Assembly (NCBI GenBank): GCA_003215725.1
Contig: QCJX01000005.1
Coordinates: forward strand, 1-64,000
Direction: 5' to 3'
DNA length: 64,000 bases
Source of the DNA: Prochlorococcus sp. AG-409-I11
GTDB taxonomy: Bacteria > Cyanobacteriota > Cyanobacteriia > PCC-6307 > Cyanobiaceae
The position numbers and the translations under genes were made by a program. This document shows, in pieces, positions 6,936 to 9,532 of this stretch (position 1 is its first letter; each line of letters opens with the position of its first letter). The notes below the pieces were generated by a model that was given only the letters and a program-made list of their open reading frames with translations, was not told where the DNA came from and did no database searches.

Positions 6936-7279
6936 TGTAAGCTAATATCAATTTTTAGGGTTTAAAAGTGAATACAATCAACAGAGGATTCTCTTTGAAT
7001 CATTAGCCATTATTTTAGATTCTTTATTAAATAATTTGAAAAAAATATTTTCATTTTAGTTTTATATATAAATCATTTAGGGTGATGGTGTTTAACTGTT
7101 AATTGTCATTACTGGATTCTTTTTCAGGAGTGTGATTTATGGATCTAAGTATAGGAAGAATTGATTCCATTAGAATTTATATTATTTTCTCTTTGTCTGG
7201 CGACTTGTCATAGATCTCCTAGCAAATTAGGTAATTTTCACCAAAGGCTAAATTTGGTATCTATTGCTACAGTTTTATC
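6936..7279. other. AT-rich spacer, probable promoter of the leader RNA
   Basis: No coding frame is supported. The right end must hold the promoter of the 7280-7607 unit. A weak minus-10-like TATCTA at 7258-7263 is the best candidate I can see. Confidence 0.35.
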
Positions 7280-7346
7280 ACGTTCGTCCCTTCCCGGGAT
7301 GCATGTTTTGGTGGCAGGGAACGGGGCTACCATTTCGGAGGAACGT
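7280..7346 (+). promoter_or_regulatory. structured 5' leader: three-way junction with complementary hairpin loops
   Basis: GC-rich island inside AT-rich DNA. P1 pairs ACGTTC (7280-7285) with GAACGT (7341-7346). P2 pairs GTCCC (7286-7290) with GGGAT (7296-7300), loop TTCCC. P3 pairs GGTGGC (7310-7315) with GCTACC (7326-7331), loop 7316-7325. The P2 loop TTCCC is exactly complementary to GGGAA (7317-7321) in the P3 loop, so the hairpins can kiss. The P1 3' strand begins at the last base of the Shine-Dalgarno GGAGG (7337-7341) of the gene at 7348, so folding could gate translation. The closing stem CGTTC/GGAACG recalls the cyanobacterial glutamine riboswitches, but their GGAAGTAGG signature is missing. 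Riboswitch or protein-binding leader: inferred. Confidence 0.6.
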
Positions 7347-7347
7347 C

Positions 7348-7527
7348 ATGAACACTCTCCCCTTAATTCGGTCTCACATCAAAAGAGCCCAACGAATCCA
7401 AAAGGCACAGCTCCTGTCAACGGCTAGAGGAAGTAAGTATCAGGATCAGACTTCTTTAAATGCCAATACTGCAGCAAGGAAGGAGAAGGCTAAACGTTTA
7501 CATAATGCTCAATTAATGGCTTTTTGA
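7348..7527 (+). CDS. small basic protein downstream of structured leader (59 aa)
   Basis: Starts MNTLPLIRSHIKRAQRIQ with a strong ribosome binding site (GGAGG, six bases before ATG). It is rich in R and K, with RGSKYQD in the middle and a helical basic C-terminus (ARKEKAKRLHNAQL). The RGSKY fragment is reminiscent of DUF4278 (YRGxxY), but the match is too short to assign. A small basic protein under a riboswitch-like leader also recalls glutamine-synthetase inactivating factors, which is only a hypothesis. A longer frame from 7264 would run through the leader and is rejected. A strong hairpin follows at 7564. Confidence 0.65.
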   Translation: MNTLPLIRSHIKRAQRIQKAQLLSTARGSKYQDQTSLNANTAARKEKAKRLHNAQLMAF

Positions 7528-7563: not shown

Positions 7564-7607
7564 TATTGACAATGCGAGAAGAACTTGACCTTCTCGCATT
7601 GTCAATA
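7564..7607 (+). terminator. 18-bp perfect hairpin, probable terminator
   Basis: Arms 7564-7581 and 7590-7607 are exact reverse complements with an 8-base loop, 36 bases after the stop of the 59-aa gene. The following T tract is weak (AATTCCTTTT), so efficiency is uncertain. Confidence 0.7.
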
Positions 7608-8831: not shown

Positions 8832-9086
8832 TTACGTAAGCCCCATTACTTTAATTCCATAAACGATCAACCCACATCCCACGAGGCAAATATTTAGTAA
8901 TCCCATTCCAACAGCACTAATAGTAAAGATTCCCATTGAAACTGCTCCTATAGAAATAATTCCCATTGGTATTAAACCAATCGCAATAATGCCACGAGGT
9001 GCAATGCCAATAGCAATTATTTTGGACATGTTACTAACACTTTCATTGGTTTTCAGAGGATTTGTTGTTTGATTGTTAGATGTCAA
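8832..9086 (-). CDS. hydrophobic decapeptide-repeat protein
   Basis: 84 residues. After a polar N-terminus (about 1-20) come six tandem ten-residue units of the form IGIAPRGIIA, IGLIPMGIIS, IGAVSMGIFT and so on, with glycine at fixed places. The pattern would give a regular glycine-spaced membrane or beta-type stack. A related repeat is found in the neighbouring broken gene at 9118-9532, so the two are probably paralogs. No enzyme motif is present. Function unknown. Confidence 0.65.
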   Translation of the reverse strand: MTSNNQTTNPLKTNESVSNMSKIIAIGIAPRGIIAIGLIPMGIISIGAVSMGIFTISAVGMGLLNICLVGCGLIVYGIKVMGLT

Positions 9087-9117
9087 AACTATTGACCTTA
9101 ATTAGTGGATCGGAAAG

Positions 9118-9532
9118 TTAATTCTTAACTCCATGGTTTGAGCAAGGCATCCATAAATCTCCCATTTTGTGTACCCCAAAACATCCGAGTTTTTTGGCAT
9201 TTGCTTCTGCTTGAGATTTGGTGGTGTAGGCGTAGATGTTCTTTGAAGAAGAAGAGTCTTTGTTCTTAATAGTTTGTTGAAGGGCGGAGCTTTCTGGGCT
9301 CCATACTTTAAGCCCCATAGTTGTTAATCCTGCAGCAAATATTCCCATACCTACTATTGAGGCATTTATTACTCCCATAGCTACAACTCCAAGGGACACT
9401 ACCCCCATTGGAACTATTCCAATAGAGACCAAATCCAAGAGGGGCGATACCAATACCAACTTTTTTTGGTTTACTTCCGCAATGAGAGGGACCTTCCGAC
9501 TGTTGCTGAGTAGAACTATTAAAACTGTTCAT
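9118..9532 (-). pseudogene. frameshifted decapeptide-repeat protein with C-terminal DUF3721 domain
   Basis: The first 30 or so codons (MNSFNSSTQQQSEG to GIGIAPLG) are in one frame and the rest in another. Removing one T near 9431-9436 (plus-strand AAA in CCAAATCC) joins GIAPLG to LVSIGIVPMG and restores an exact ten-residue repeat register. Five repeat units are followed by a linker and a DUF3721-type end (TKSQAEANAKKLGCFGVHKM, then WMPC). The part after the shift is fully open to its stop at 9118. It could be a true mutation, a sequencing error or recoding. Confidence 0.65.

Follow-up and report, generated by a model that had tools for sequence, protein, structure and literature searches.

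A predicted glutamine-II riboswitch, slightly divergent in sequence, in the leader of a small basic protein gene of Prochlorococcus

The RNA encoded at positions 7278-7333 of the 64,000-nucleotide stretch of Prochlorococcus sp. AG-409-I11 DNA analysed here (the window) is, judged from its sequence, a glutamine-II riboswitch, that is, a slightly divergent copy of a known class. The full switch model, in which a glutamine-II (type 2 glutamine) riboswitch lies in a short leader ahead of one small gene, is given a probability of roughly 0.93. A ligand-sensing riboswitch governing the translation of a small basic protein had been proposed by a first-pass annotation of the same DNA; that proposal was of the right kind, and the sequence features it described are borne out by the letters, whereas the architecture and the class it favoured are replaced here.

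Class assignment and anatomy of the aptamer

The covariance model of RF01704, the Glutamine-II family formerly called Downstream-peptide, matches 7278-7333 on the forward strand over its full length (positions 1-60); the score of 36.0 bits is only 3 bits higher than the gathering threshold of 33. The E value of this match is 3.9e-5 when the whole window is scanned with all Rfam families, 1.8e-7 when the scan is restricted to 7150-7450, and 1.9e-7 in a search of the genome. Folding energy alone is unremarkable (z = 0.30), and it is the Rfam match, not the folding energy, that sets the element beyond chance. Glutamine-I (glnA, RF01739) is absent from the matches at E up to 1 in the Rfam scan of the element region; its ligand site is nearly identical to that of glutamine-II (PMC6698751), but it is built as a three-way junction with an E-loop and no pseudoknot, unlike this element. 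An Ocean-VII match at 7434 was dismissed as chance, its 14.5 bits being far below the cut-off of 53.5. By considering glnA and Downstream-peptide RNAs as relatives, the first-pass annotation had named the right family, yet it set that family aside for a possibly distinct class; the RF01704 match lies above the gathering score, the very outcome that it had foreseen as speaking against a new class.

Positions are numbered here as in the crystal structure of the Prochlorococcus sp. RS01 RNA (PMC6698751), so that A33 corresponds to 7316, G35-G42 to 7318-7325 and the C19:G41 pair to 7302:7324 (Table 1). In that structure G18 forms a triple with G2:C39, and C19 pairs with G41 (PMC6698751). All the binding-site nucleotides that could be placed, C1, G2, G18, C19, A33, C39, G40, G41 and G42, are present in the window (7281, 7282, 7301, 7302, 7316 and 7322-7325), and the glutamine-riboswitch core that had been declared missing is found as CAGGGAACGG, which matches UAGGGAACGG of the crystallised Prochlorococcus RNA (PMC6698751). 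The element has in common with RS01 the P1-PK-P2 order (PK, pseudoknot), the CGUUC:GAACG helix, G18, C19:G41 and A33:G42 (PMC6698751), and both lead small peptide genes in marine picocyanobacteria. It differs in carrying G6-U17 where RS01 has A6-C17, in its short P1 with a loop of 5 nt, and in its low score; the RS01 RNA resembles the leaders of those members of the 59-aa protein family that have A6-C17, such as L060.

Table 1. Features of the riboswitch locus (window coordinates)
Feature	Position	Strand	Remarks
NtcA-type box GTA-N8-TAC, GTATCTATTGCTAC	7257..7270	+	24 nt upstream of aptamer core
Glutamine-II aptamer (RF01704), predicted	7278..7333	+	36.0 bits, gathering 33, model 1-60
PK 5' strand CGUUC (C1-C5)	7281..7285	+	partner 7319-7323; 139/140 cells paired
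P1 hairpin	7286..7300	+	stem 7287-7290/7296-7299; loop 7291-7295 UUCCC; G6 (7286) opposite U17 (7300)
Linking strand G18, C19	7301..7302	+	invariant in the 28-leader alignment; roles from PMC6698751
P2 stem enclosing pseudoknot loop	7310..7331	+	7310-7315/7326-7331; 100% of cells paired
PK 3' strand GAACG	7319..7323	+	pairs with CGUUC 7281-7285
Shine-Dalgarno GGAGG overlapping GAACGU	7337..7346	+	possible alternative partner of 7280-7289
59-aa basic protein	7348..7527	+	pI 11.7; two KRxxRxxxAQL-like repeats
Long inverted repeat after the ORF	7564..7607	+	18-pair stem, near-perfect, terminator-like; weak T-rich tail only

The glutamine-II structure is paired in 98.5% of the cells of a MAFFT alignment of 28 homologous leaders (alignment A1), against 42-56% for versions of the structure slid along it. 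Six aptamer pairs, three in P1 and three in P2, have changed on both sides, where shuffling gives a mean of 2.6 and reaches six in 1 of 500 trials; the P1 counts are rough, MAFFT having placed part of P1 wrongly in several divergent rows. The PK helix together with C19:G41 is paired in 167 of 168 cells (columns 7-11/53-57 and 36/58). It is nearly invariant, and the support for it comes from conservation and from homology to the crystal structure, not from covariation. The loops differ widely in length and sequence among the relatives.

Two of the three stems described earlier are real and covary in the 28 homologues: those then called P2 (7287-7290/7296-7299) and P3 (7310-7315/7326-7331) are the P1 and P2 of the aptamer. 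The closing stem then called P1, which joins ACGTTC at 7280-7285 to GAACGT at 7341-7346, is complementary and adjoins GGAGG at 7337-7341 as described, but it has no compensatory change in any of the homologues and is lost in several, and this distal stem is rejected as part of the aptamer in favour of the pseudoknot, in which CGUUC pairs with GAACG inside the loop of the former P3. The loops TTCCC and GGGAA had been proposed to dock. They are complementary in this copy, and across the 28 leaders 66% of cells pair, whereas controls slid along the alignment reach 42-65%; since this is no better than sliding gives, and the loops of relatives vary widely, the docking is a coincidence of this copy. 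A distinct riboswitch class, made of a three-way junction with docked loops and recognising another ligand, could call on the complementarity of TTCCC/GGGAA and ACGTTC/GAACGT in this copy, but the RF01704 score above the cut-off, the docking pairs no better than their controls, the closing stem without double changes and the complete set of glutamine-II binding-site nucleotides make it extremely improbable. A reading that is blind to pseudoknots can make a known switch look like a new one.

The coplanar A6-C17 of the crystal, which lies at the P1/PK junction without hydrogen bonds (PMC6698751), is not seen in the glutamine-II element of the window, where G6-U17 takes its place, as it does in 26 of 28 leaders in all. 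The reported glutamine contacts do not include positions 6 and 17 (PMC6698751), and A6:C17 was for that reason not taken as defining the class. Pattern searches found G6-U17 also before the DUF4278 peptides of L099-L103, while other, otherwise standard members have A6-U17 or G6-C17; these searches match unrelated DNA as well, and, with the A6-C17 majority outside the counts, no formal association is claimed. The rule that these sequences suggest is a purine at 6 and a pyrimidine at 17, and the exchange to G6-U17 therefore looks structurally mild. It could be argued that an RNA derived from glutamine-II has drifted in specificity towards a related ligand through this exchange next to the binding site, as G6-U17 is found in all low-light-type orthologues of the 59-aa protein gene; given that both positions fall outside the glutamine contacts, and that G6-U17 also precedes DUF4278 peptides while A-U and G-C occur too, so that the exchange looks structurally neutral, such a drift is very improbable. 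What is new on the RNA side is modest, namely a low-scoring member with G6-U17 instead of A6-C17, added to a riboswitch class of solved structure.

Control of translation and transcription

A Prochlorococcus glutamine-II element is reported to turn expression on with glutamine (PMC6316151, PMC6698751), and PK formation has been proposed to compete with a fold in which the ribosome site is hidden (PMC6698751). Selective glutamine binding has been shown in other members of the class and is predicted for this copy; the ON direction, likewise, is known from the literature on other members and would hold here by analogy. Plentiful glutamine would bind at the PK helix (CGUUC:GAACG plus G18, C19 and A33:G42) and stabilise the pseudoknot, which would withhold CGUUC from the GAACGU overlapping the Shine-Dalgarno sequence, so that the 59-aa protein would be translated.

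The masking helix that this scheme calls for, between 7280-7289 and 7337-7346, is plausible only and at best a clade-specific alternative. Pairing of ACGUUC-G-UCC (7280-7289) with GGA-G-GAACGU (7337-7346) has an energy of -14.3 kcal/mol against a shuffled-site mean of -7.2 (p = 0.003), such duplex p-values being unreliable in the rows with GGAATGTTATG, where the ribosome-site stretch is cut short. This helix would span the whole Shine-Dalgarno sequence and share CGUUC with the aptamer. In the 28 leaders the former closing stem, extended by UCC/GGA, is paired in 86% of cells with no double change, and the helix is missing in leaders of the DUF4278 type and in many more distant relatives. Imposing the aptamer does not leave the Shine-Dalgarno sequence freer (0.54 against 0.47) in Vienna ensembles, which consist of nested folds without pseudoknot or ligand. 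A glutamine-II switch with another expression platform, for example one in which the Shine-Dalgarno sequence pairs with an early coding CUCUCCC or in which a folded leader blocks ribosome entry, would compete with this step of the mechanism only and not with the identity of the RNA. It is a serious contender, somewhat short of an even chance: the ensemble folds pair GGAGG with CUCUCC at the coding start, and the masking helix is unconserved outside the clade, while in this copy no duplex to the ribosome site is stronger than ACGUUC/GAACGU plus UCC/GGA (by the energies just given), and the minimum-energy fold of 7270-7370 contains ACGUUC/GAACGU.

The consensus of NtcA binding sites is GTA-N8-TAC, and a box of this form lies upstream of the element (Table 1). 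Of 59 related loci, 53 have such a box at most 80 nt upstream, compared with 2% of shuffled upstream sequences, and it stands at exactly -24 in 25 of the 28 loci of the 59-aa protein family. Two loci about 6 kb apart in one genome (L034 and L062, G031) are paralogous copies of riboswitch and protein, one of them without the NtcA box at -24. A search for sigma-70-like promoters gave no match on the forward strand. The start of Yfr6, an RNA belonging to the same group, precedes the motif by about 20 nt (PMC2864571, PMC1242208); transcription would by this spacing start around 7260, on top of the NtcA box. If the Yfr6 spacing holds, the box lies on the start site and NtcA would therefore repress, its position suggesting a repressor acting when nitrogen is scarce. 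An NtcA motif before a riboswitch-controlled DUF4278 gene has already been noted for PMM1846 (PMC6316151), and the arrangement points to a double logic of known type, in which transcription is controlled by NtcA and translation by a glutamine ON switch. The transcript probably ends at the inverted repeat at 7564-7607.

Distribution of the element and the 59-aa protein

Two further RF01704 copies are found in the same genome (1.33 Mb, 74% complete), with 75.2 and 73.2 bits, and the peptides behind them are DUF4278 proteins by Pfam match. RF01704 occurs in 203 of 300 genomes of the same family and in none of 14 control genomes, and, as is known for the class, the element serves as leader to a small ORF of marine picocyanobacteria. 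The two DUF4278 peptides of this genome share the leader type and the NtcA box with the 59-aa protein; as YRG-repeat peptides, they have no similarity to its KAxRLHxAQL repeat.

The 59-aa protein contains 12 K/R against 2 D/E and has no Pfam or NCBIfam family match, DUF4278 (PF14105) included. Its KRxxRxxxAQL-like repeat has a shuffle p of 0.0075 in this copy, and in three relatives none of 2000 shuffles reaches it. Some 20 orthologues, 73-81% identical and preceded by the same riboswitch element, are found in genomes of the family, and the named relatives come mostly from Prochlorococcus single-cell genomes. They carry one, two or three repeat units with varying tails, the proteins being 33 aa long in L088-L090 and 92-94 aa in L091 and L098. 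Among 242 genomes of the class, a profile of the protein finds matches only within the family to which the window belongs; no relatives were found in phages or viral contigs, and a search of solved structures gave a chance match only. Its AlphaFold model is one long helix (pLDDT 78, pTM 0.34). The KAxRLHxAQL-repeat proteins (7348-7527 and L088-L098) seem to form a modular family that has no name, lies behind glutamine-II riboswitches and is distinct from DUF4278. One orthologue (L054) follows this type in its leader and N-terminal half and the L058/L060 type in its C-terminal half, as if recombined, and another (L049), with AAG in place of the ATG start codon and one in-frame TGA, is possibly decaying. 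Elsewhere in the window, ORFs of the reverse strand at 8832-9459 carry MGIISIGAVSMGI-like repeats and probably encode repetitive membrane or structural proteins.

The glutamine synthetase inactivating factors gifA/IF7 and gifB/IF17 are small like the 59-aa protein and under NtcA control, as it would be, and gifB is also under a glutamine riboswitch (PMC6316151). Homology of the 59-aa protein to IF7 was considered and rejected, hhalign giving a probability of 0.05% over 1 column. Ten genomes of the same family, tested with a query that we take to be IF7, yielded no IF7-like genes; the family it represents is a real one, with matches in 64 of 116 genomes.

Because of its NtcA and glutamine controls, the 59-aa protein would be made under nitrogen sufficiency, and it is probably an effector of that state that binds another protein or a nucleic acid. 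Marine picocyanobacteria are reported to be without full-length IF7/IF17 and PirA (PMC6316151, PMC8092223). A more specific proposal, speculative and rather unlikely as it stands, is that marine picocyanobacteria have in the KAxRLHxAQL protein a regulator of their own, induced by glutamine and controlled by NtcA, that stands in for the absent IF7/IF17 and PirA, for instance as an inhibitor of glutamine synthetase or a partner of PII. Given the reported lack of those full-length factors, this protein, which is small, basic, conserved and encoded behind both an NtcA box and a glutamine riboswitch, makes a concrete candidate for a part in the nitrogen-sufficiency response of these organisms.
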